Shown one piece after another: positions 1 to 43,975 of a stretch of 64,000 nt of DNA. Each line of letters begins with the position of its first letter. The stretch's first letter is position 1. The position numbers were made by a program, and so were the translations under genes. The notes beneath the pieces were generated by a model. It saw only the letters and a list, made by a program, of their open reading frames with translations, was not told the DNA's origin and did no database searches. This stretch comes from Litoreibacter albidus. Lineage in GTDB: Bacteria; Pseudomonadota; Alphaproteobacteria; Rhodobacterales; Rhodobacteraceae. The DNA lies in assembly GCF_900107015.1 (NCBI RefSeq), contig NZ_FNOI01000004.1, forward strand, positions 62,001 to 126,000, written 5' to 3'.

Positions 1-73
1 CCACGTGAAATTTGGAATAAGGCGCATGCGCGTTCTCGCGAACCGAAAGCGCGTGTGGCAGCAGATCAGACAT
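1..73 (-). CDS. cdd: Cytidine deaminase, N-terminal fragment (cut by window edge)
   Basis: An ATG at 71-73 on the minus strand opens a frame that stays open to the window edge and gives 24 residues. The stretch VRENAHAPYSKFHV matches the opening of cytidine deaminases, where an APYSxFxVGAA segment precedes the zinc-binding HAE and PCxxC motifs; those motifs lie outside the window. A GGGGGA run five bases upstream of the ATG is a plausible ribosome-binding site. The enzyme would deaminate cytidine and deoxycytidine to uridine and deoxyuridine in pyrimidine salvage. It lies downstream of prpE on the same strand, 167 bases away. The call rests on a short but characteristic motif. Confidence 0.75.
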   Translation of the reverse strand, partial: MSDLLPHALSVRENAHAPYSKFHV

Positions 74-240
74 CGGTGTCCCCCAAAGACGTTTGCGCCA
101 ATAGTGAAGCGCGCGGCGCGGAGTTTCAATGCCTCGCTTGCGGGGAAAAGGACGGCAGAAGTGATTTTCTAGCCTGAGGCGCAGAAGACGCCGTGGGGAC
201 GCGGCCCAACTTCACAGCGGGCAGCGCCTGATTTTCGGGA

Positions 241-2133
241 TCATCCCTGCGGGTATCCTAGCCCCTTCAGCGCCACCGCGATCTCGTCAAGGATTGCAGG
301 GTCGTCAATGGTTGCTGGCATCTTGAAGTCCTTGCCATCCGCGATAGAGACCATCGTGCCCCGCAGGATTTTGCCAGAGCGCGTTTTTGGCAACCTGTCT
401 ACGACACACGCCAGCTTGAAGGCGGCGACAGGCCCGATCTGGTCACGAACCCGTTGCACGATCTCTTTGATGATATCACCGTGCGGGCGGTCGACGCCTG
501 CGTTCAAGCACACGAAGCCCATGGGCATCTGCCCCTTCAGCGCGTCGGACACCCCGATAACCGCGCATTCCGCAACGTCTGGGTGGCCCGCCAGCACCTC
601 CTCCATCGCGCCCGTCGACAGGCGGTGGCCCGCGACGTTGATCACGTCATCGGTCCGCGCCATGATGTAGAGATAGCCGTCCGCGTCGATCATGCCTGCG
701 TCGCCGGTCTCGTAGTAGCCCGGGAAGGTCGTCAGGTAGCTTTTGACAAACCGCGCCTCGGCATTCCACAGGTTCGGCAGGGTGCCAGGTGGCAACGGCA
801 GCTTGATCGCAATGGCGCCAAGCTCCCCCGTTTTCATGGGGTGCCCCCCCTCGTCCAGCACCTGCACATCGTAGCCCGGCATGGCGACCGTCGGGGAACC
901 GATTTTCACCGGTAGCGGTTCTATCCCCATCGGGTTGGCAGCAATCGCGAAGCCCGTTTCAGTTTGCCACCAATGGTCAATGATCGGCTTGCCCAGATGG
1001 GTTTGCATCCATTCGATAGTGTCGGGGTCCGCACGCTCCCCCGCGAGGTAGACGGTCTTCAGGCTGGAGAGGTCGTAGTTCTTGATGAGCTCCCCCTGCG
1101 GGTCTTCGCGTTTGACCGCGCGAAAGGCTGTCGGGGCGGAGAAGAAGCTTTTGACTTTATGCTCCTCCACCACGCGCCAGAACGTGCCCGCATCCGGCGT
1201 GCCGATGGGTTTCCCCTCGAACACGACAGTCGTGTTCCCGTGGATCAGCGGCCCGTAGCAAATGTAGCTGTGCCCCACGACCCAACCGACATCGGAGGCG
1301 GCCCAGAACACGTCCCCGCTGTCGACATCATAGAGATTCTTCATCGTCCAGTTGAGCGCCACCAGATGCCCTGCCGTGGGGCGCATGACGCCTTTGGGTT
1401 GGCCCGTCGTGCCGGATGTGTAGAGGATGTACGCCGGATGGTCCCCAGAGACGGGCACGCACTCCGCAGGCTCGACACCGTATTGGAAGCCGTGCCAATC
1501 GTAATCACGCCCCTCACTCAGGTTCGCGACTTCCTGCTCGCGTTGGAAGATAACGCAGAACTCCGGCTTGTGGGTGGCCAGATCAATCGCCCCGTCGAGC
1601 AATGGCTTGTAATGCACCACACGGCCCGGCTCTATCCCGCAGGAACTTGCGATGATGGCTTTGGGCGTGGCGTCGTCAATCCGCACCGCCAGCTCGTTCG
1701 CGGCGAACCCGCCGAAGACCACCGAATGCACCGCGCCGATGCGGGTGCAGGCGAGCATGGCTTCCAGCGCTTCGGGCACCATTGGCATGTAGATGATGAC
1801 GCGGTCGCCCTTCTCAACGCCCTTGGCGCGTAGGGCACCCGCGAGCGAGGCTACGCGGGTTTGCAACTCCGCATATGTGATTTCTTGTTTGGTATGTGTG
1901 ACGGGGCTGTCATAGATGATCGCCACGCGGTCACCGTTGCCTGCCAGAACGTGACGGTCCACCGCGTTATAGCATGTGTTGACCTGTGCATCCTTGAACC
2001 ATTCGTAAAGCGGCGCGTTGTCGGAGAAGAGCGCTTTGGACGGCTTTTGGTCCCAATCAATTGCCTCCGCCTGTTCCATCCAGAAACCTTCTGGGTCATC
2101 AAGCGAGCGTTTATAGATATCGGCATAATTCAT
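241..2133 (-). CDS. prpE: Propionyl-CoA synthetase (acyl-CoA synthetase, ANL superfamily)
   Basis: A cytosolic 630-residue AMP-forming acyl-CoA synthetase that activates propionate (and possibly acetate) with ATP and CoA. The phosphate-binding loop YTSGTTGQPKG is at about residues 238-248, and the acylatable lysine is in the C-terminal motif KTRSGK, about residue 588. The N-terminal start (NYADIYKRSLDDPEGFW) is the acetyl/propionyl-CoA synthetase cap. Length and sequence fit PrpE better than Acs, which is usually about 650 residues. The start is supported by AGGAGGG six bases upstream of the ATG. That ribosome-binding site lies inside a strong inverted repeat (2140-2183), so translation may be controlled. 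Propionate activation feeds the methylmalonyl-CoA or methylcitrate route, whose genes are not in this window. Confidence 0.9.
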   Translation of the reverse strand: MNYADIYKRSLDDPEGFWMEQAEAIDWDQKPSKALFSDNAPLYEWFKDAQVNTCYNAVDRHVLAGNGDRVAIIYDSPVTHTKQEITYAELQTRVASLAGALRAKGVEKGDRVIIYMPMVPEALEAMLACTRIGAVHSVVFGGFAANELAVRIDDATPKAIIASSCGIEPGRVVHYKPLLDGAIDLATHKPEFCVIFQREQEVANLSEGRDYDWHGFQYGVEPAECVPVSGDHPAYILYTSGTTGQPKGVMRPTAGHLVALNWTMKNLYDVDSGDVFWAASDVGWVVGHSYICYGPLIHGNTTVVFEGKPIGTPDAGTFWRVVEEHKVKSFFSAPTAFRAVKREDPQGELIKNYDLSSLKTVYLAGERADPDTIEWMQTHLGKPIIDHWWQTETGFAIAANPMGIEPLPVKIGSPTVAMPGYDVQVLDEGGHPMKTGELGAIAIKLPLPPGTLPNLWNAEARFVKSYLTTFPGYYETGDAGMIDADGYLYIMARTDDVINVAGHRLSTGAMEEVLAGHPDVAECAVIGVSDALKGQMPMGFVCLNAGVDRPHGDIIKEIVQRVRDQIGPVAAFKLACVVDRLPKTRSGKILRGTMVSIADGKDFKMPATIDDPAILDEIAVALKGLGYPQG

Positions 2134-2139
2134 TGGGGT

Positions 2140-2183
2140 CCCTCCTCATTCGTGCGGCGACTAAAGCCGCTGAACGAGGAGGG
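2140..2183 (-). promoter_or_regulatory. Hairpin burying the prpE ribosome-binding site
   Basis: In the minus-strand transcript, 2183-2172 (CCCTCCTCGTTC) pairs with 2151-2140 (GAATGAGGAGGG) over 12 pairs, one of them a G-U wobble. An inner 5-pair stem (GCGGC/GCCGC, 2170-2166 with 2058+100 region 2158-2154) closes a 7-base loop. The prpE Shine-Dalgarno sequence AGGAGGG (2146-2140) is wholly within the outer stem and ends six bases before the ATG. There is no run of T after the stem, so it does not look like a terminator for the DUF533 gene upstream. It could reduce prpE translation on read-through transcripts, or act as a thermometer or riboregulator. The pairing is seen; the function is inferred. 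Confidence 0.6.
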
Positions 2184-2214
2184 CGCAAGGCACACTATGC
2201 CACAGTTTGCGCTA

Positions 2215-2889
2215 TCAGTTGTAAAGGCGCTGGACGCCGAAGCTGTCGTGGATCTCGTTTGCGGTCGCCTGACCGATGCCCAAGGCCGCAGCCAATTCGT
2301 GCAGATACTTCGCCTCGGCGCGGTTGTCCGGCTCAATCGCCATGACGGACATGGAGTAAACCTGTGTCTCCAGCCCCTCTGGCGTGCTCGCGGCCAATGC
2401 GGCTGCATCAACAGGCTCCGCCATTGCGTCGCGCACGAAAGCCATGTCGGCGTCGGTTGCTTCCTCGCCAATGGTCGCCATCAGCGTTTCGCGCTCTGTG
2501 TCGTCGATTTCACCGTCGCAGCGTGCAGCCATGACCATCGCGCGGATCATCAAGCCAGCGGTTTCCTCTTGGGCTGGCTCTTCAACGGGATTGTCCTGAC
2601 GAAGCAAGTCTTCAAGCGACCCGCCCGATCCACCGCGCGCAGATGCCAAGCCGCCAAGCAGACCACCGATGCCGCCAATGCCACCTGCAGCACCGCTGCC
2701 GCCTGTCAGATTGCCAAGCATCCCGCCAAGACCACCGCCGGACCCCGCCTGAGACGCCCCTGCCCCGCCAGCGGCCCCCTTCAAGCTGTCCATCATTTTA
2801 CCGATGCCGCCGGACTGCTGAACCTTTTGCATTCCCTTCGCGACAGCAAAACCGATGGCGACTTTGGTGACCATATTCATCAATGACAT
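2215..2889 (-). CDS. DUF533 / TerB-like protein
   Basis: A protein of 224 residues starting MSLMNMVTKVAIG. A longer in-frame start exists upstream, but the conserved MSLMNM opening marks 2889 as the better start. An N-terminal hydrophobic segment is followed by a long glycine/alanine/serine-rich stretch (about residues 30-90). A C-terminal helical domain of about 120 residues, with RAMVMAARCDGEIDDTE and later acidic turns, resembles the TerB fold of the DUF533 (YebE-like) family. Members are inner-membrane associated with no established reaction; some have been linked to tellurite resistance or stress. The gene lies 81 bases upstream of prpE on the same strand and could be cotranscribed with it. 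No ter genes are nearby, so a tellurite role is not supported here. Confidence 0.75.
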   Translation of the reverse strand: MSLMNMVTKVAIGFAVAKGMQKVQQSGGIGKMMDSLKGAAGGAGASQAGSGGGLGGMLGNLTGGSGAAGGIGGIGGLLGGLASARGGSGGSLEDLLRQDNPVEEPAQEETAGLMIRAMVMAARCDGEIDDTERETLMATIGEEATDADMAFVRDAMAEPVDAAALAASTPEGLETQVYSMSVMAIEPDNRAEAKYLHELAAALGIGQATANEIHDSFGVQRLYN

Positions 2890-2980
2890 TGTGCGTTCTC
2901 CGTACCAGATGCAGGCCACCGCAGCGGGACCCTTCACATTTTAGAATGGGGACGCTGTGGCCAATCGTCTAGGGGGAAAG

Positions 2981-4243
2981 TCAGACCAATTCCGGCTCCC
3001 GACCCAGACGCTTGGCCAAAGGCGCGACCGTCAGCCCCTGCACAATGATCGAGAAGATCACCACCACATAGGTGGCCGTCAGGATGACCGGCTTCCACTC
3101 GCCCTCCGGCAAGGACAAGGCCAGCGCCACAGAGATACCGCCCTTGAGGCCACCCCACGTCATGATCGGGATTACCCCCTTGGAGAACCCGCGGAAGGGG
3201 CGCAACAGCAACACCGGTACCGACACCGCAACAAACCGCGCGACCAAGGCCAGTGCAATCGCGAAGACCCCCGCAACGATCCCGTGGACCGAGAACGCAA
3301 CGGCAAAGACCTCCACCCCGATCAGCAGGAACAACACCGCGTTCAGGATTTCATCAATCAACTGCCAGAACCCGTCCACATAGCGACGGGTGGTTTCCGA
3401 CATGCCGTATTTCGACCCGACATCACCAATCAGCAGACCTGCGCAAACCGCCATAACAGGCCCGGACAGATGCAGATAAACCGCCAACGAATACCCCCCG
3501 AAGGCCAGCGCGAGGGTGATCAAAACCTCAAGCGCGTAGTCATCAATCCGTCGCATGACCCGAAACGTCAAAAAGCCAAGCACCACGCCAAGCAGCGCGC
3601 CGCCCACGGCCTCTTGCAAGAACAACTGCGCGGCGGCGCTCAGCCCGCCCCCGCCATGTGCCTCGCCGTGGGCATCCAGTGCGGGGAAGGCAACGCCGAC
3701 CAGCACAAGGAAGACCACATAGCCCACTCCGTCATTGAACAGGCTTTCTCCCGCGATCTGTGTTTCCATGCTTTTCTTCAGGTTCGCTTGCCGCAGCACC
3801 CCGAGCACCGCGACAGGGTCCGTCGGCGAAATAAGCGCCCCGAACACAAGCGCAATCATGATCGGCATGCCCGTCATCCACGCGAAGCCGAAGCCCGCAA
3901 TTACCGTCGACAGGCCGACGCCCAGCGTCGCCATTAGGGCCACCACGCGCCACTCGCCCTTCAAGTCAGCAAGCTTTACGTGCAACGCCCCCGCAAACAG
4001 CAAGAGCCCCAACATGCCCTCCAGCAGTGCCTCTGAGAAGTCGATGGACTTCACGACGGCACGCACCTCCGTCGCCACGCCCAGTTGCGGCGCAACAAGG
4101 TCAAGCGCCATGATCGCCAAGGATGCCAGCAACGCCACGATCAAAATCCCGATCGCAGAGGGCAGCTTCAGGAACAGGTAGTTGACCGTTCCAAAGGCCG
4201 CGGCCAATACCAGCAGTAGCGATGCGATTTGCAAAATGTCCAT
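2981..4243 (-). CDS. CPA1-family Na+/H+ (or K+/H+) antiporter
   Basis: A 420-residue integral membrane protein with about twelve hydrophobic segments, starting MDILQIASLLLVLAAAFG. It has the cation:proton antiporter-1 signatures SPTDPVAVLGVL and GESLFNDGVGYVVFLVL, which carry the Asp residues of the ion-binding site. It would exchange cytosolic Na+ (or K+/Li+) for protons and contribute to pH and salt homeostasis, fitting a marine organism. No C-terminal TrkA or CBS domain is present, so it is the short NhaP form. The gene stands alone between DUF533 and the divergent EamA gene. Ion specificity cannot be read from sequence. Confidence 0.88.
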   Translation of the reverse strand: MDILQIASLLLVLAAAFGTVNYLFLKLPSAIGILIVALLASLAIMALDLVAPQLGVATEVRAVVKSIDFSEALLEGMLGLLLFAGALHVKLADLKGEWRVVALMATLGVGLSTVIAGFGFAWMTGMPIMIALVFGALISPTDPVAVLGVLRQANLKKSMETQIAGESLFNDGVGYVVFLVLVGVAFPALDAHGEAHGGGGLSAAAQLFLQEAVGGALLGVVLGFLTFRVMRRIDDYALEVLITLALAFGGYSLAVYLHLSGPVMAVCAGLLIGDVGSKYGMSETTRRYVDGFWQLIDEILNAVLFLLIGVEVFAVAFSVHGIVAGVFAIALALVARFVAVSVPVLLLRPFRGFSKGVIPIMTWGGLKGGISVALALSLPEGEWKPVILTATYVVVIFSIIVQGLTVAPLAKRLGREPELV

Positions 4244-28367: not shown

Positions 28368-29006
28368 CTACTCCGCGGCCTGCTTCGCCTCAAGTTTGCG
28401 CTGGCGTTCCTTCCAGCGCGGCATACGCACAGCCTTGCCGGCCATGTCGGAATATATGGACTCCACACGCGCCAGCGACAGCCGACCATCCGGCTTGTAC
28501 CAGCTTGTCACACCGTTCAGCATGGAAATCAGCGCCAATGTGGTCAGCTTGGTATCATCGACATCGAACAGGCCTTCGTCTTGGCCGCGCTTCAATATCC
28601 CCTCAAGCGCATTCTCGTACTGGCGACGCATCTGGCCCAACGCCTCAAAGTTGTCGGGCTCCAGATTGCGCAGTTCCATGTAAGAGATGAACACTTTCTC
28701 TGGCCGCTCTAAGTGGAACCGAATGTGGAACCGTGAAAATGTCTCCAGCTGGGCCACGGGCCCCTCCGGCTTCTCCTCAGCCTCCCATGCGTCCAGAACT
28801 TCTTGCATGTGGTCGCGCAACAGATCGAACAACAGTGACTGCTTGTCGGGCGTGTACAGATACAACGCGCCCGCCTGAACGCCGACCTCCGCCGCGATTT
28901 GGCGCATGGAGACAGCAGCGAAGCCATGCGCCGCAAAAAGCTTGAGTGCCGCCGCGCGAACGCGCGGACCAGTGATGTCGGAGTGTGATCCGGTTTTACG
29001 TGCCAT
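28368..29006 (-). CDS. TetR/AcrR-family transcriptional regulator
   Basis: A 212-residue one-component regulator. The N-terminal HTH (residues about 15-60) reads LKLFAAHGFAAVSMRQIAAE then VGVQAGALYLYTPDKQSLL, the standard TetR signature. The C-terminal ligand domain is of a type common in regulators of acyl-CoA metabolism, but no ligand can be assigned. An inverted repeat TGAAC-N4-GTTCA 15 bases upstream of its start could be its own operator. The neighbours (exonuclease, small lipoprotein) give no clue about targets. Confidence 0.87.
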   Translation of the reverse strand: MARKTGSHSDITGPRVRAAALKLFAAHGFAAVSMRQIAAEVGVQAGALYLYTPDKQSLLFDLLRDHMQEVLDAWEAEEKPEGPVAQLETFSRFHIRFHLERPEKVFISYMELRNLEPDNFEALGQMRRQYENALEGILKRGQDEGLFDVDDTKLTTLALISMLNGVTSWYKPDGRLSLARVESIYSDMAGKAVRMPRWKERQRKLEAKQAAE

Positions 29007-33834: not shown

Positions 33835-34959
33835 TTACTCCTCGACAATCTGCGCGTCCGCTGGGTCAAATACGGTGTGACAGGCACGCCCCTTGCCCTT
33901 GGATGAGTATAACGCGCGGTCTGCATCTTGCAGCATGCGGTCCGCCATCGGTTTCGCGTAAAAGCTGGAGAGCGTCGTCCCGATACTGGCAGATATACGG
34001 CACACATCGTCACCGTAAGGCACCGGCTGCTCTAGCCGCGAGATAATCCGCCATGCGATTCCCTCAAGCACCGCCAGATCAACGCAGCCCCTGAAAACCA
34101 GCACAAATTCGTCCCCTCCGACCCGTGCCACCAGATCACCGGCGCGTGTCTCGTCCTGCAAAACGCCGGAGACATGTTTCAGCACGTAGTCCCCCGCCCC
34201 ATGCCCGAAGGTATCGTTGACCTGCTTGAAGTAATCCAGATCCAGATGCATTAGCCCGAACGGTTGATCGGACTTTTCAAGCTCGTGCAGAAGTGCGTCC
34301 ATGCTTCGGCGGTTTTGCAGGCCCGTCAACGTGTCGGTAAAGGCCTGCACCTCCGCCGCAACCCGCGCGCCCTCTAACCGCGCGTTAAGGCGTTTGGATT
34401 CCTCCAGCGCAACGGATTTGGCCTCTATCAGATACAGCATGTCGACCGTTGGGTCGGCTGGCGCAAAATCCGCGCCACTCAGGCGATAGCGCTGCACTGC
34501 GTCCACGACATTGACGCCAAGCGACAAGTTGATCAACGCCCCGCGTGATGGCTGCAAGCTGCGCGCGGCTGATCGCTCCGATGTGGGGCGCAGAACAAGG
34601 TCGCTGTCCGACGCCCCACGCCGATCGGGTTGCAGCGGCGGCTGCGCACTAAGGGGCACAAACAAGCCCTTCATGCCCAGCCGATCCCCCTTCCTAAATC
34701 GCGTCCTGATCAGACAGCTTTCATGTTCCAGCAGATCGCTAAAATGGTTGACGTGTAGGGGGCGCTTGATCTCAAACACCTCTAGAAGCCGTTGGCCAAC
34801 CAAATCATCGTTGGGCCGCAACTTCGCCAAAGTCGGCCCCACGGATGCAATATGGCCAGTGGGAGAGATATGCAGATGCATGGGCATCAACGCGCCAAGC
34901 ACATCCTGATCAAAGGGCACATAGCTTGCGGGCGCATCAATCGCTCCCGCGCTGTTCAT
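33835..34959 (-). CDS. Diguanylate cyclase with H-NOX-associated (HNOBA) sensor domain
   Basis: A soluble 374-residue protein. Residues about 20-180 (MPMHLHISPTGHIASVGPTL, later RLGMKGLFVPL) look like a heme-NO-binding-associated PAS-like domain. A short coiled coil (IEAKSVALEESKRLNARLEG) joins it to a GGDEF domain. The signature GGDEF is intact at 281-285 with RAGD (272-275) five residues before it, the inhibitory I-site for c-di-GMP. It should make c-di-GMP from two GTP. Its ATG overlaps the stop of the H-NOX gene as ATGA, so the two proteins are probably made together and interact. No transmembrane segment is seen. Confidence 0.9.
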   Translation of the reverse strand: MNSAGAIDAPASYVPFDQDVLGALMPMHLHISPTGHIASVGPTLAKLRPNDDLVGQRLLEVFEIKRPLHVNHFSDLLEHESCLIRTRFRKGDRLGMKGLFVPLSAQPPLQPDRRGASDSDLVLRPTSERSAARSLQPSRGALINLSLGVNVVDAVQRYRLSGADFAPADPTVDMLYLIEAKSVALEESKRLNARLEGARVAAEVQAFTDTLTGLQNRRSMDALLHELEKSDQPFGLMHLDLDYFKQVNDTFGHGAGDYVLKHVSGVLQDETRAGDLVARVGGDEFVLVFRGCVDLAVLEGIAWRIISRLEQPVPYGDDVCRISASIGTTLSSFYAKPMADRMLQDADRALYSSKGKGRACHTVFDPADAQIVEE

Positions 34960-35558
34960 GACGCACCGGTTTCGGCGATAAGCCCAAAGTCGCGGCCAGA
35001 GCTAAAATCCGCCTCGAACAGCTCCACAGTGACCCACTCCGCCGCCTTTCCATCGCGTGTGGCGCGCGCAAGGTTGAGAACCACCAGCGCACCGTAGTCA
35101 TCCCCCATCGCCCTGAGAATGCCCAGCAGCACTGCGCCAAACCCCGGTTGTCGCGTGTAAAGCACGACGCTGAACGACGTGTGCGAATGAACATCAACTT
35201 CCAACTGCGGCAAATCCAGATCGGGTAAGGCAAGTTTCACGCGGTCATGCAGGTCGTCCAGCGACAACACGAACTCTTCAAAGGTCGTCCCGCCGAAGCG
35301 CAAAAGCCTGCGCACCGGCTCCATCCGGTCGTGGGTCACAAGATAGGCCCCGACGTCTTCAGACACCTGCGCTACCGTGCGCCCAAGATGCGTGGACAGT
35401 GCGGCCAGCACGCTCTCCAGCTGGTCGTCCGGATACATAAGCATAGCCTCGTATTCGCGCAGCTGAAGCCCCGCGTCGTCGACCACCTTTAACCACAGCT
35501 CCTCACCGTAGATGTCCTGTGCAAAGCATTGAAGCGCGCGATGAACCAAGCCGTACAT
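34956..35558 (-). CDS. H-NOX (heme nitric oxide/oxygen-binding) protein
   Basis: A 200-residue stand-alone H-NOX domain (MYGLVHRALQCFAQDIYG; SEDVGAYLV; RRLLRFGGTTFEEFVLSL). His104 in DDLH matches the proximal heme ligand, His102 of the Thermoanaerobacter protein, with an offset of two. The heme-propionate motif Y-x-S-x-R should then be at 133, 135 and 137, but here these are Leu, Thr and Gln. Heme binding may be altered. In other bacteria H-NOX proteins bind NO and control an adjacent diguanylate cyclase or histidine kinase; the coupled cyclase here fits that scheme. The 180 bases upstream hold no gene. Confidence 0.88.
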   Translation of the reverse strand: MYGLVHRALQCFAQDIYGEELWLKVVDDAGLQLREYEAMLMYPDDQLESVLAALSTHLGRTVAQVSEDVGAYLVTHDRMEPVRRLLRFGGTTFEEFVLSLDDLHDRVKLALPDLDLPQLEVDVHSHTSFSVVLYTRQPGFGAVLLGILRAMGDDYGALVVLNLARATRDGKAAEWVTVELFEADFSSGRDFGLIAETGAS

Positions 35559-35738: not shown

Positions 35739-36443
35739 TTAACCGGTATGCCCATCAAGCCAGTCAGGCAGGTCCGCCACGCTGTTCAGCACAACATCGG
35801 CATGTGGGGTTAATTCCTCGCGGGTTGCAGGCCCTGTCAGAACACCGACGCAGACCATCCCAGCGGCGCGCCCCGCGTGCAAGTCATGCGTGCTGTCGCC
35901 GATCATGGCGACCTGTGCAGGCTCCAGCCCGCAGTGACGAGAGAACGCCCAGAGCATTTCTGGCGCGGGCTTGCCCCCATAGCCGGAATCGAACCCCAGA
36001 ACGCGGGCGAACCGTCCTTCCAGCCCCAGCGCCCGCACGTGAGCGATGGCGGAGCTTTCCGCGTCATTGGTGGCAACGCCAACGGCCAGCCCCCGCGTGT
36101 CGAACTCATCGAATAGCGCAGACAGCGGGCACGGGGCGACGAGGGGCGCCCGCGCGGCGGCGGCGTTGCCGTGCTCGAGCAGCGCCGCACGCTCCCAATG
36201 CGGCAAGAACGGGAGCAACAAGTCAATCGCCACGTCCGAGGTGCCTGCAATCACGGGACTGCTTGGGTGAAACATTCCCGCCGCCACGTCGTAGCCGATA
36301 GCGTCGCCCATACGCGTCACCAGCGCAGCGTCACCCGCCGCCAACTCCCCCAGAAATCCGGCGGCCCACTGCCCCCATGTCGCGTTAAAATCCAGAAGTG
36401 TCCCGTCCTTATCGAACAGCAAGCCTTTGATCTGCCCCGTCAT
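35739..36443 (-). CDS. HAD-superfamily phosphatase, phosphoglycolate phosphatase-like
   Basis: A 234-residue HAD hydrolase starting MTGQIKGLLFDKDGTLLDF. Motif I is DKDGTL (Asp nucleophile and acid/base Asp), motif II VATND (Thr), motif III the Lys of GGKPAPEM and motif IV MIGDSTHDL. The helical cap between motifs I and II is of the C1 type found in phosphoglycolate phosphatase. It would dephosphorylate a small phosphate ester; 2-phosphoglycolate is the family default, unproven here. GAGAGGAA about ten bases upstream supports this start over a longer frame. It is divergent from the reductive dehalogenase gene. Confidence 0.85.
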   Translation of the reverse strand: MTGQIKGLLFDKDGTLLDFNATWGQWAAGFLGELAAGDAALVTRMGDAIGYDVAAGMFHPSSPVIAGTSDVAIDLLLPFLPHWERAALLEHGNAAAARAPLVAPCPLSALFDEFDTRGLAVGVATNDAESSAIAHVRALGLEGRFARVLGFDSGYGGKPAPEMLWAFSRHCGLEPAQVAMIGDSTHDLHAGRAAGMVCVGVLTGPATREELTPHADVVLNSVADLPDWLDGHTG

Positions 36444-36556
36444 ATCGCGCCCGTTCCTCTCTTGACCCGCTTCCTTCGCTCCGTGACAGTGCCGATGAAC
36501 AGCGGCGAGAACAAGCGTTACACGCCGCGTGCCAACGGAACGATGAAACTGCACCC

Positions 36557-39500
36557 ATGACAAAACTCTTCTCCTACAAAGATCGCCCGGTACATCTGGG
36601 CCCCTACCCGCTGGAAAAGCTGGATCGGGCCAACAGTGTTCAGCTGGATGGGGTACCCGGCATGGAGCAGGTGAGTTTCCGACGCCCAGATGACACGCTA
36701 AGCATCGTTAACGCGATGCAAGACTACCAAGCCATGCTTGACGCCACCCGCGACGGGTTGGTCAAAAAGGAAATCGCTGAAATCCCATCGGACCTGACCG
36801 AACGCGCCAATCATCTAAAGGCCTTTGGGTACTTCTGTGATGCGTCCATGGTCGGCACATGCGCCATCCCGCCTGAGGCATGGTTGGATACCCCGCTGGC
36901 AAATCCGGACGTCGACCGGCTGGCCGAAAAGCTGCGCACGTTGCAGCCGAAAACCTTGGCCGCTGGTATCGACGTGATCATGGCGGGGCTGCGCGAAAGC
37001 ATGCGTGCCTCCCCGCAAGCCTGCGATCATCACACCAATGCGCTTGTGTTTCTTTATGACATGCCCCGCGACCCCGAAACGGGGGAGGATGGCACGGACT
37101 GGTTCAAAGACGCCCAAGACCAACGCGCTTGTCTACGCGGAATGGAAAGCGCGGTAACGCTCGCCTCCTACATCCGAACGCTGGGCTACGATGCGCGGGC
37201 GCATTCCATGGCGGCGACTGACGTGCATCTTGGAAAGCTCGCCGTCGCCGCAGGGCTGAACCGCGCGGATGGGTCCAACCCGTTCCTAGGCACACGGTAC
37301 GGGCTGGCGGTAGTGACCACGACCCTCGCCATGGCCCCCGACGCGCCATTGGCCAGCGCCGCCAAACCCGGGCGCGAATGGCGCTTGGGGCTGGGAAGCC
37401 AAGCCAAAACCGCCCGCACGCATGACCCGTTTGCAAAACGCCGCTTTGCCGATGGCCCGCACCCCTTCGAGACGCTGAAGCGCGTGGACAGCCCGACCAC
37501 CTATATTGACGCGCCGAATGTCGCGCGTGTCCCAAAACGGGCAAACCTGTTCGTGCGCGGCCTGTTCGGCGATATGGGGAAAACTGTGCAGGACGCCACG
37601 AAAAACGGTAACTTCGTACGCAAATCCGCCTCCGCCTTCGCCTTTCGCACCTCGCTTGGTGCGCTGGTCTTACTACAAGACGGCGATGCCGCCCCCGTGC
37701 ACGACAGCACGCGGGACGCCGACCGCAATGCCGCGAACATCAAGGCCCTGCTCTATTGGCTCGGGGTGGATGCCGCAGGCCTTAGCGTCTGCCCCGATTG
37801 GACCTATTACAGCCACGACGCGGCTGGGCAGCCGATCACGCCCTATCATACCAATGCCATTTCCATGGTTATCGACCAAGGCCACGAAACCATGGAGGGC
37901 GCGTCCGGCGACGACTGGATTGCCTGCGCCCAATCCATGCGCGCCTACCTGCGCTTCTCGTTACTGGGCGGCGTTTTGGCGCAGCACTTGCGCAACCTTG
38001 GCTACACCGCCCGCGTGCACTCTTCCATGGACGACGAGGTGCTGCACCCGCCACTGTTGCTACTGTCCGGCTTGGGAGAGGTATCTCGCATCGGCGAAGT
38101 CATCCTGAACCCGTTCCTTGGCCCCCGCCTGAAATCCGGCGTTGTCACCACGAACATGCCGATGACGCATGACAAGCCCATCGACTTCGGCCTGCAAAAG
38201 TTCTGCGATGCCTGCAACAAATGCGCCCGCGAGTGCCCGTCGGGCGCGATCACCGCAGGGCCGAAGCTGATGTTCAACGGCTATGAAATCTGGAAGTCAG
38301 ATAGCCAGAAATGTACGACCTACCGTGTCAGCCAGAAGAACGGCGCAATGTGCGGGCGCTGCATGAAAACCTGCCCGTGGAATCTGGAAGGTCTGTTCTC
38401 CGAGGCCCCATTTCGCAAACTGGCCATGACAGTCCCGCAGGCCGCCAAAGCCTTGGCCAAGCTCGACGACATGGCCGGTCAGGGTCAAATTAACGCCGTG
38501 AAAAAGTGGTGGTGGGATCTGGAGATGGTTGACGATGGCGCCTACCGCCCGTCGCCCCATCCGGTGAACGCGCGCGGTCTGCAAACCGATTTGGAACTGC
38601 GCTACGAGGATCAGACACTCGCCGTCTATCCCGCGCCGCTAGCACCGCCGCCCTATGCCTACCCCTACCCCATGGACCGCGAAGCCGGCATCGCCGCGTA
38701 TGAGGCCATGATCCCAGCGGCAGAGCACAAAGCGCGCCGTGCGGCAGGACAACCAACAGAGCACATCTACACCGCCGACCAAACAGAGAGCCCTGTTCTG
38801 GGCGTGATCATCTCGAAAGTAGAAAAGCTGAGCGGTGGCGTGACGAAGTACGAGTTTTCCATGCCCGACGGCTCCGACATGCCACCAGTGGAGGCTGGCG
38901 CCCACATTGACGTTGTCGTCGCCCCCGAATTCTTGCGGCAATACTCGCTGTCCGGCGACCCTGCGGACCGAAGCAAATATCAGATCGCGGTTCTGCGCGA
39001 AGATGGCGGGCGTGGCGGCTCCAAACTGATGCACCGCGTCTTTGAAGAAGGCCGCCGTGTCCACATCTCCAAACCGATCAACCACTTCCCCCTGATCGAA
39101 GACGCCTCTTTTAGTTACTTGATGGGCGGCGGAATCGGCGTCACACCAATGATCGCCATGGCGCATCGCTTGCATGCCTTGGGCCGCGACTTCGCGGTCC
39201 ATTACTCGTGCTCTACACGCGAAGGCGCAGGTTTCATCGGCGATCTGTCCGCGATGCCGTGGTCCGACAAAGTCCATTATCACTTCTCTGACGAAGGCTC
39301 GCGCTGCGACCTAACGGCAACGCTGAAACCCCGCACCAACGCACATGTCTACACCTGCGGCCCAGAGGCCTATATGAACGCCGTTATGGACACCGCAGAG
39401 GTTAACGGCTTCCCAGAAGACACGCGCCACTTGGAGTTCTTCTCGGTCCCAGAGCAGCCGGACTATGTGAACCACGACTTCACCCTCCGGCTGGCGCAAT

Positions 39501-39739
39501 CGGGCAAAGATATTGCCGTCAGCAAGGACGAGGCCCCGACCGACGCCCTGCTGCGCGCGGGTATCCATGTGGATGTGAAATGCGCCGACGGGCTGTGCGG
39601 CGTGTGTAAGTGCGGTCTGATATCCGGCGACGTGGAGCACCGCGACTTCGTGCTCTCGAACGCCGACCGCGCCAAATCCATCATCCTGTGCCAATCCCGC
39701 GCAGCCGCTAAAGACGGAGTCGTGGAGATCGACCTTTAG
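36557..39739 (+). CDS. Self-sufficient reductive dehalogenase (RdhA fused to FMN/[2Fe-2S] reductase)
   Basis: A 1060-residue multidomain protein. Residues 1-640 are a cobalamin-dependent reductive dehalogenase, with an N-terminal degenerate half (about 190-265) that mirrors the catalytic half (about 455-535). Two [4Fe-4S] ferredoxin motifs follow: Cys550/553/556/560 (CDACNKCARECP) and Cys586/599/602/606 (CGRCMKTCPW). Residues about 745-965 are a ferredoxin-reductase module: flavin motif RQYSL at 794, nucleotide motif GGGIGVTPM at 857, CGP at 934. Residues 970-1060 are a plant-type [2Fe-2S] domain with Cys1009, 1014, 1017 and 1045. No Tat signal or membrane anchor gene is present, so it is a cytosolic catabolic form, like BhbA of Comamonas. 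It would remove halogen from an organohalide using NAD(P)H. Substrate unknown; likely a halogenated aromatic. Confidence 0.9.
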   Translation: MTKLFSYKDRPVHLGPYPLEKLDRANSVQLDGVPGMEQVSFRRPDDTLSIVNAMQDYQAMLDATRDGLVKKEIAEIPSDLTERANHLKAFGYFCDASMVGTCAIPPEAWLDTPLANPDVDRLAEKLRTLQPKTLAAGIDVIMAGLRESMRASPQACDHHTNALVFLYDMPRDPETGEDGTDWFKDAQDQRACLRGMESAVTLASYIRTLGYDARAHSMAATDVHLGKLAVAAGLNRADGSNPFLGTRYGLAVVTTTLAMAPDAPLASAAKPGREWRLGLGSQAKTARTHDPFAKRRFADGPHPFETLKRVDSPTTYIDAPNVARVPKRANLFVRGLFGDMGKTVQDATKNGNFVRKSASAFAFRTSLGALVLLQDGDAAPVHDSTRDADRNAANIKALLYWLGVDAAGLSVCPDWTYYSHDAAGQPITPYHTNAISMVIDQGHETMEGASGDDWIACAQSMRAYLRFSLLGGVLAQHLRNLGYTARVHSSMDDEVLHPPLLLLSGLGEVSRIGEVILNPFLGPRLKSGVVTTNMPMTHDKPIDFGLQKFCDACNKCARECPSGAITAGPKLMFNGYEIWKSDSQKCTTYRVSQKNGAMCGRCMKTCPWNLEGLFSEAPFRKLAMTVPQAAKALAKLDDMAGQGQINAVKKWWWDLEMVDDGAYRPSPHPVNARGLQTDLELRYEDQTLAVYPAPLAPPPYAYPYPMDREAGIAAYEAMIPAAEHKARRAAGQPTEHIYTADQTESPVLGVIISKVEKLSGGVTKYEFSMPDGSDMPPVEAGAHIDVVVAPEFLRQYSLSGDPADRSKYQIAVLREDGGRGGSKLMHRVFEEGRRVHISKPINHFPLIEDASFSYLMGGGIGVTPMIAMAHRLHALGRDFAVHYSCSTREGAGFIGDLSAMPWSDKVHYHFSDEGSRCDLTATLKPRTNAHVYTCGPEAYMNAVMDTAEVNGFPEDTRHLEFFSVPEQPDYVNHDFTLRLAQSGKDIAVSKDEAPTDALLRAGIHVDVKCADGLCGVCKCGLISGDVEHRDFVLSNADRAKSIILCQSRAAAKDGVVEIDL

Positions 39740-43060: not shown

Positions 43061-43138
43061 GCAAGACCGCATGGCATCTGAATACGGCATGGCTTAACAT
43101 CTCGTTGTGCACGCCAACGCGATATGAGGAACAGGCCG

Positions 43139-43975
43139 ATGTCGACCCCATGCATAATATGCGCCGCCATCACGGGATCCGTTCCCACACAGGCAGATAA
43201 CCCTGCTGTACCCGTGACCGTTTCCGAGCAAATTGAAAGCACCCACGCCAGTTTTGAAGCAGGCGCGTCGATCGCGCACTGCCACGTTCGCGATGAGGCT
43301 GGCAAGCCCACCTCCGACCCGGAGCGATTTGCCCGCCTGAAAGAGGGCATTGAGAAACATTGCCCCGGAATGATCGTACAGCTCTCCACCGGCGGGCGCT
43401 CCGGTGCGGGGGTGGAGCGTGGCGGCATGCTGCCCCTTGCGCCGGACATGGCCTCGCTGTCAGTGGGGTCAAACAACTTCCCCAAGCGGGTCTATGAAAA
43501 CAGCCCCGATCTGGTGGACTGGCTTGCCGCAGAGATGATCAAATACGACATCAAGCCAGAGATAGAGGCCTTCGACCTGAGCCACATCGTACAAGCCACC
43601 CGCATGGCGCAAGACGGGCGACTGAAAGGTCCGCTCTATGTGCAGTTTGTCATGGGGGTGAAGAACGCGATGCCCGCGGACAAGCGCATCTTTGACTTTT
43701 ATATAGAGACGTTGAACCGGCTCGCCCCTGACGCGCAATGGTGTGCTGCGGGCGTTGGGCCTGCACAGATACAGGTCAACGAATGGTCAATCTTGCAGGG
43801 TGGGCACACGCGCACGGGGTTGGAGGATAACATCCGTCTGGACCGGAACACGTTGGCCCCGTCAAACGCGGCGTTGGTGCAACGTGCGGTTGACCTGTGC
43901 GAAAAATACGAGCGCCCCGTCGCCACATGGCAACAGGCGCGCGCGATTTTGGGCCTTAGATCAACCGCCGCGTAG
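43139..43975 (+). CDS. BKACE family enzyme (3-keto-5-aminohexanoate cleavage-like, DUF849)
   Basis: A 278-residue TIM-barrel enzyme starting MSTPCIICAAITGSVPT, with AGGA ten bases upstream; an in-frame ATG five codons earlier overlaps that site. The family condenses a beta-keto acid with acetyl-CoA and splits off acetoacetate, using a zinc ion held by two His (here HCHVRD) and a Glu. The Kce signature GSVPTQ and ARAILGL end are present. Members act on many beta-keto acids, so the substrate is open. It is the only plus-strand gene of the catabolic island before lacI. Confidence 0.88.
   Translation: MSTPCIICAAITGSVPTQADNPAVPVTVSEQIESTHASFEAGASIAHCHVRDEAGKPTSDPERFARLKEGIEKHCPGMIVQLSTGGRSGAGVERGGMLPLAPDMASLSVGSNNFPKRVYENSPDLVDWLAAEMIKYDIKPEIEAFDLSHIVQATRMAQDGRLKGPLYVQFVMGVKNAMPADKRIFDFYIETLNRLAPDAQWCAAGVGPAQIQVNEWSILQGGHTRTGLEDNIRLDRNTLAPSNAALVQRAVDLCEKYERPVATWQQARAILGLRSTAA

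Follow-up and report, generated by a model that had tools for sequence, protein, structure and literature searches.

A fused reductive dehalogenase of the BhbA/JtRdhA class in Litoreibacter albidus, with bromo- and iodophenols as its most likely substrates

Introduction

Which halogenated compounds would be attacked by a reductive dehalogenase that carries its own reductase, and what would the host gain from it? The question is raised by a gene of Litoreibacter albidus, here named rdhA, which lies within a stretch of 64,000 nucleotides of contig NZ_FNOI01000004.1; this whole stretch is called the window in the following. The original prediction, made from the sequence alone, described a gene of 1060 residues joining an RdhA with two [4Fe-4S] clusters to a flavin mononucleotide (FMN), NAD(P)H and [2Fe-2S] reductase, placed it among the self-sufficient catabolic enzymes related to BhbA, and proposed debromination or dechlorination of halophenols in oxic water. 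The observation itself was confirmed here: the protein consists of a catabolic RdhA, which extends to about residue 730, and a fused phthalate-dioxygenase-reductase (PDR) module (about 747-1060). The interpretation was partly supported, and the chlorophenol idea was left unsupported. Very probably, judging by analogy with characterised relatives, the product belongs to the BhbA/JtRdhA class, being a soluble, cytoplasmic and oxygen-tolerant reductive dehalogenase which is driven by NAD(P)H and most likely acts on bromo- and iodophenols. Vitamin B12, oxygen-tolerant chemistry and the bromine cycle of the sea come together in this enzyme class.

We take the marine host of JtRdhA, Jhaorihella thermophila, to belong to the same broad group as L. 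albidus. JtRdhA (WP_104007082), the fused homologue examined in most depth, debrominates and de-iodinates phenols with NADPH, both with and without air, while no chlorinated compound tested was turned over, and 3,5-dichloro-4-hydroxybenzoate acted as a competitive inhibitor with an inhibition constant of 13.7 uM (PMC10463259). According to the authors of that paper, it is unclear whether all fused enzymes share this limit; the RdhA genes named in the legend of its tree include those of Ruegeria pomeroyi, Tropicibacter, and Pseudovibrio. Homologues of bhbA have been cited as widespread in the Roseobacter clade (PMC13101508).

Results

Gene and domain architecture

The rdhA open reading frame (ORF) runs from ATG to a stop codon where it had been placed originally, while the two alternative forward frames contain 36 and 25 stops. 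Its G+C content (0.611, and 0.742 at third positions) resembles that of the seven neighbour genes compared, and rdhA is therefore treated as a resident coding gene and not as a chance frame. The host genome (3.58 Mb in 12 contigs, estimated completeness 99.9%, the window being on contig 6) gave a single match to the RdhA protein at an expectation value (E) <= 0.001.

The NCBIfam reductive dehalogenase model TIGR02486 scored 192.8 bits against a cut-off of 160.35, with the best stretch at residues 427-639. In a search of solved-structure sequences, residues 3-107 and 156-731 aligned to NpRdhA (4ras) with E 1.3e-161, and residues 747-1056 matched phthalate dioxygenase reductase 2pia with E 2.7e-56; next in rank came the reductase ends of two P450s. 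A profile built from 36 fused sequences gave the same domain order. Profile and solved-structure searches thus agree on the composition first described, and residues 1-640 fall inside RdhA by model, by structure-sequence match and by the tree presented below. Pfam-A gave, at E <= 0.001, no models beyond Fer2 and a pair of overlapping 4Fe-4S models. The cofactor roles of the RQYSL, GGIGVTP and CGP motifs in the reductase module are those we presume from the family. No twin-arginine (Tat) leader is visible on reading the N terminus, in line with the original prediction, and the NpRdhA alignment starts at residue 3. The alignment of residues 3-107 and 156-731 also indicates a vestigial duplicated N-terminal core, such as has been described for NpRdhA (PMC10463259). 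An AlphaFold model had a mean predicted local distance difference test score (pLDDT) of 70.8 and a predicted template modelling score of 0.63. When this model was searched against the PDB, the 14 best matches were NpRdhA chains, the best being 6zxx (E 3.4e-46, template modelling score 0.75 by target length), and these were followed by P450 reductase ends and the PDR enzyme.

The fused forms are also marked by an insert. At positions 112-156, where every fourth residue was sampled, 98-100% of the fused rows of our alignment were filled, versus 6-61% of the full-length unfused rows. The insert of JtRdhA is said to fold over the active site (PMC10463259), and that of the window protein resembles it by description. 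Further features which the two share are the RdhA and PDR-type reductase build, the lack of a Tat leader, and the residues Y426, K488 and R552 (NpRdhA numbers); they differ in that JtRdhA has been assayed, whereas the window protein is known from sequence, the comparison being with the published description of JtRdhA. NpRdhA of Nitratireductor pacificus (PDB 4RAS, 6ZXU-6ZY1) is 45.3% identical to the window protein over 569 aligned positions. It is likewise catabolic, with the vestigial duplication and the same catalytic and [4Fe-4S] residues, but has no reductase domain, no insert at 111-157, and another hydrophobic pocket wall.

Active-site and cluster residues

Six NpRdhA residues, F291, S422, M423, Y426, K488, and R552, are reported to be conserved in JtRdhA (PMC10463259). 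Their equivalents in the window protein are F332, S460, M461, Y464, K526, and R590, respectively. All six, together with the eight [4Fe-4S] cysteines, are kept in the window protein and in 115 of 115 fused relatives, and the four [2Fe-2S] cysteines in 113 to 115 of these relatives, the remainder being gaps. In NpRdhA, S422, K488, and R552 lie near the substrate hydroxyl, Y426 is the proton donor, and A419 is found at the second bromine (PMC7565698).

Kinship and origin of the fusion

From the loci surveyed, 158 RdhA proteins were collected, of which 135 had the reductase part and 23 lacked it. After removal of duplicates the alignment comprised 140 rows, including the window protein and NpRdhA; L041, L055, L065, L099, and L106, being identical to earlier rows, are absent from alignment and tree. 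For the tree, 51 of the 140 rows were chosen by hand (27 fused and 24 unfused, NpRdhA among the latter), and the root was set at midpoint. The 27 fused rows made up one side of a branch with support 100/99, with BhbA and a Nitratireductor plasmid copy at the base, and the window protein grouped with Litoreibacter. The kinship with BhbA and the division into fused and unfused forms are thus borne out by the tree, which fits a single origin of the fusion among the sampled rows.

BhbA from plasmid pBHB of Comamonas sp. 7D-2 (WP_015585978, L111) has the fused build and all six active-site residues, and is identical to the window protein at 49.6% over the RdhA half and 51.1% over the reductase half. 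It differs in being plasmid-borne and close to transposases and protocatechuate 4,5-dioxygenase genes, whereas rdhA stands beside HAD and znu-like genes, and in having S at the second-bromine position, which is C457 in the window protein. The Nitratireductor OM-1 copy differs in its setting as well, with ring-cleavage genes and pobA nearby. Another debrominase of the Roseobacter group without a Tat leader is Ros_A3X954 of Roseobacter sp. MED193 (PMC13101508). Its published Fe-S motifs at 283-345 suggest a short enzyme of another build, and it is reported as oxygen-sensitive (PMC13101508); MED193 also carries a fused RdhA (L110, 65%).

The closest named kin of the rdhA protein are four Litoreibacter loci at 84-87% identity, with other Litoreibacter-labelled loci at 76-78%. 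For the gene of L. arenae DSM 19593 (L034) the identity is 84%. The RdhA of G171, the only other genome of the genus in the sample, is just 65% identical, which speaks against a simple story of a resident gene. Recent horizontal transfer was considered and rejected, since the G+C content is like that of the neighbours and the nearest Litoreibacter loci hold rdhA in the same setting. By these comparisons rdhA looks resident.

Other builds were met among the unfused rows. The nearest row outside the fused branch was L159 (G1113:C5), a protein of 751 residues; it is a candidate for the pre-fusion state, and no PDR-type match was found within the roughly 1.5 kb examined on each side. The minus strand of L139 (from alphaproteobacterium G601:C14) encodes, at 1-3570, a catabolic RdhA of the unfused type in frame with an AMP-binding, acyl-CoA ligase-like domain (Pfam 7.7e-63). 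The frame runs to the end of the available DNA, while the sister L140 ends at a stop instead, and the join may be a genuine fusion of another kind or else arise from the assembly. L143, L144, and L146, with 423-438 residues, match only from about 295-299 onward, i.e., they are catabolic-type RdhA proteins without the vestigial N-terminal half.

Discussion

Proposed reaction and its alternatives

In the proposed mechanism, NAD(P)H would reduce FMN in the C-terminal module, and single electrons would pass from the [2Fe-2S] cluster by way of the two [4Fe-4S] clusters of the RdhA half to cobalamin, which, by similarity to NpRdhA, is presumed to be base-off. S460, K526, and R590 would hold the hydroxyl of the bound ortho-bromo- or ortho-iodophenol; the halogen would be taken by cobalt and a proton given by Y464, so that halide and the dehalogenated phenol are released. 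The N-terminal part of about 300 residues would be a vestigial second core, in place of the dimer partner of the respiratory enzymes. The architecture, the residues, the kinship and one gene of cofactor synthesis come from the present data; we infer the electron route, the preference for bromine and iodine, and the oxygen tolerance from JtRdhA and NpRdhA.

Other chemistries were weighed against this scheme. A dechlorinase, or a general dehalogenase of chlorophenols, could be imagined as the pocket wall of the window protein is not identical to that of other fused enzymes, but the failure of JtRdhA, of the same fused build, to convert any chlorinated compound tested (PMC10463259) renders it improbable. 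Of the original proposal, aerobic use stays plausible, while dechlorination is weakened, chlorophenols being only inhibitors of JtRdhA in that account. That the protein is instead a cobalamin reductase of some non-halogenated substrate, merely resembling RdhA as epoxyqueuosine reductase does, we consider very unlikely: the QueG model matched weakly at residues 494-609 and the pocket wall residues vary, but with 22.7 bits against a cut-off of 200 QueG fails where the reductive dehalogenase cut-off is passed, and the hydroxyl-binding and proton-donor residues are invariant in fused relatives. The least credible reading is a respiratory RdhA of organohalide respiration. It has in its favour the common RdhA core and a distant match to PceA, and is already contradicted by the architecture, with no visible leader before the core, a duplicated N-terminal half, and a fused NAD(P)H reductase, as well as by the tree, which places the window protein with BhbA.

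Some observations weigh against the preferred reading. The AlphaFold model is middling, with pLDDT below 50 across residues 549-620, i.e., the [4Fe-4S]/cobalamin region, and therefore it is too weak alone to argue for or against a cobalamin pocket or binding. The pocket wall departs from NpRdhA at F290 (L331), P311 (V354), A419 (C457), and N452 (S490). Two of these replacements are the commonest choice among the 115 fused relatives, C457 (C in 83) and V354 (V in 97), and L331 is found as L in 24 and M in 89 of them. S490, on the other hand, is unusual (V in 113, A in 2, never S), and so is F353 (Y in 109, F in 3); the substrate may therefore differ. The cobalamin site of the original prediction stands in so far as the NpRdhA residues around cobalt and substrate are kept, but its wall varies and the model adds little by itself. 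Downstream of the dehalogenation, pobA was not found over its cut-off in the host genome (best 31 bits), and neither hmgA nor HpaB-1 gave a match there at E <= 0.001.

Role in the host

Cobalamin can probably be made by the host, because cobN, the sole cobalamin-synthesis gene sought, scored 1604 bits against a cut-off of 822; the match, L163 (G000:C4:262586-266254), is reported with one TGA inside. The fate of the phenol is less clear-cut. As pobA, hmgA, and HpaB-1, which were the three ring-attack families sought, were not found, the data do not bear out the label "catabolic" in the case of this strain. Two places in the host genome resemble intradiol dioxygenases but lie under the cut-off for the protocatechuate 3,4-dioxygenase beta subunit, one of them being Dioxygenase_C. 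In the window, 43124-43975 on the plus strand encodes a BKACE enzyme of the 3-oxoadipate:acetyl-CoA acetyltransferase type (492 bits, cut-off 350), and another BKACE gene, in a different part of the genome (L166), has an intradiol dioxygenase close by. Given the intradiol-like places and the BKACE gene, the host may have another route of ring attack.

In the family, pobA was counted at E <= 1e-100 in 263 of 394 genomes (253 over cut-off). It is present in 117 of the 149 genomes matching rdhA at E = 0 and in 146 of the 245 others, an odds ratio of 2.5; without the 33 genomes with weak matches to rdhA, the others number 123 of 212 and the odds ratio is 2.6, both values being uncorrected for kinship or genome size. 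For this reason the enrichment was not used as proof of function. G171 carries both RdhA and pobA. Our search of the literature on Litoreibacter and dehalogenases found only the genome report of L. arenae, which, in the passage found, reports a homogentisate 1,2-dioxygenase and names haloacid dehalogenases but not this gene. For the family, then, it is plausible that the enzyme serves growth on bromophenols, but for this strain such a role is unproven.

Compatible with the preferred chemistry, and given a little less than an even chance by us, is a role in detoxification or co-metabolic removal of halogen from marine bromophenols without growth on the product. It agrees with the failure to find the three ring-attack families in a nearly complete genome, with the 32 of 149 E = 0 genomes that are without pobA at the threshold above, and with the scanned neighbours within about 3 kb of rdhA, among which no aromatic-catabolic gene was found, unlike for BhbA and the Nitratireductor OM-1 copy. 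The uncorrected pobA enrichment, however, leans to a catabolic link in the family, as do the joint presence of pobA and a 65% identical RdhA in G171 and the homogentisate dioxygenase reported for L. arenae, and the intradiol-like places with the acetyltransferase would allow a route other than those sought. A more speculative reading, which we hold to be rather unlikely, is that in this strain the enzyme has left bromobenzoate catabolism and become a constitutive or differently controlled halophenol detoxifier, or an eraser of halogenated signals, with changes at S490 and F353 that would fit its pocket to a natural substrate new to studies of fused RdhA; it is suggested because the strain shows neither pobA nor the MarR gene that stands next to rdhA in about half of the related loci. 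Since the usual downstream gene was not found in the host genome and the pocket residues are unusual, the natural role is testable.

Distribution

Among 394 genomes of the same family, 182 matched the rdhA protein at E <= 1e-50 and 149 at E = 0. Only the latter were counted as carriers, and the other 33 (best E 2.5e-138 to 1.7e-51) were set aside because many of them are probably reductase-only matches, although not checked singly; in G033 (2.5e-138) and G160 (3.4e-125) a true though incomplete rdhA may be present. Nearly all of the matches listed begin at the first residues and end near 1060, but several are partial (e.g., G099, G102, G269 with a stop, G287, and G340). The RdhA half was found at E <= 1e-60 in 31 of 385 genomes of a class-level sample and in 18 of 398 of a phylum-level sample, same-family genomes included. 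Of 72,556 plasmid records, 8 had a place covering >= 80% of the query, BhbA's own included. E = 0 matches in more than one third of the sampled same-family genomes point to debromination as a trait common among these bacteria. The gene is no rarity and was given too much weight in the original prediction, the class being in print from Roseobacter-group bacteria. With the generality of the trait largely published, the rdhA protein is an ordinary addition to a known, common enzyme class, and what the window adds is one member with two unusual pocket residues.

Neighbourhood and regulation

The features of the locus are collected in Table 1. Neighbour scans covered a chosen set of ORFs of the window. 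Upstream of rdhA stand a divergent HAD-type hydrolase, an H-NOX protein and a GGDEF protein, in this order, and downstream znuB-, znuC-, zur-, and znuA-like genes, each below its curated equivalog cut-off. The likely start of the HAD gene, 36443, is the first Met of ORF 35739-36563, but it is unsure, as some matches of kin extend slightly upstream. The best matches of this gene are phosphoglycolate-phosphatase-like and under cut-off, only general HAD-IA models being passed, and the haloacid dehalogenase type II model gave 30.5 bits against a cut-off of 125.4; it is therefore no evidence of dehalogenation.

Table 1. Positions of rdhA, its parts and its upstream neighbour in the window.
Feature	Position	Strand	Remarks
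rdhA, self-sufficient catabolic reductive dehalogenase, 1060 aa	36557..39739	+	Residues 1-730 RdhA, ~747-1060 PDR-type reductase
Codons of fused-type insert, ~residues 111-157	36887..37027	+	Present in fused forms, absent from most full-length unfused forms
Codon stretch with the six published active-site residues F332, S460, M461, Y464, K526, R590	37550..38326	+	
Two [4Fe-4S] motifs, Cys 550, 553, 556, 560 and 586, 599, 602, 606	38204..38374	+	
Phthalate-dioxygenase-reductase-like module	38795..39736	+	RQYSL 794, GGIGVTP 858, CGP 934, [2Fe-2S] Cys 1009, 1014, 1017, 1045
HAD-type hydrolase, divergent from rdhA	35739..36443	-	Near rdhA in many related loci
Intergenic region between HAD gene and rdhA, common to both	36444..36556	.	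Presumed control region

Control of rdhA would be expected in the intergenic region. No cobalamin or MarR gene adjoins rdhA among the ORFs scanned, and the sole TetR gene among them (28368-29006) lies about 7.5 kb away. The absence of regulator genes noted originally thus holds for the window but not for about half of the relatives. In a survey of 80 related loci, 5 of which had less than 2.6 kb of upstream DNA, a MarR gene was found within 700 bases upstream of rdhA in 42. Many Yoonia and Loktanella loci are without it, as are the window and the four Litoreibacter loci closest to it, whereas two Litoreibacter-labelled loci (L036 and L069) do have it. A match to the HAD gene (tblastn, E <= 1e-6) was present somewhere in the available flank of 63 of the 80 loci.

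In 49 of the 80 loci a corrinoid-methyltransferase-like gene of the MTTB family (PF06253) was situated near the HAD gene and rdhA (e.g., L031 6531-8087). As a partner of rdhA it was rejected: MTTB was found in 272 of the 394 family genomes (E <= 1e-150) versus the 182 with any RdhA match at E <= 1e-50, so that at least 90 genomes carry MTTB without rdhA, and the linkage is read as inherited gene order. The host genome has only distant MTTB relatives, with 36% identity at best.

The H-NOX (haem-NO-binding) and GGDEF/HNOBA proteins are adjacent at 33835-35558 on the minus strand, and perhaps link nitric oxide or oxygen to cyclic di-GMP signalling. The pair was rejected as a sensor controlling rdhA, no link having been found; only some of the loci listed have it.

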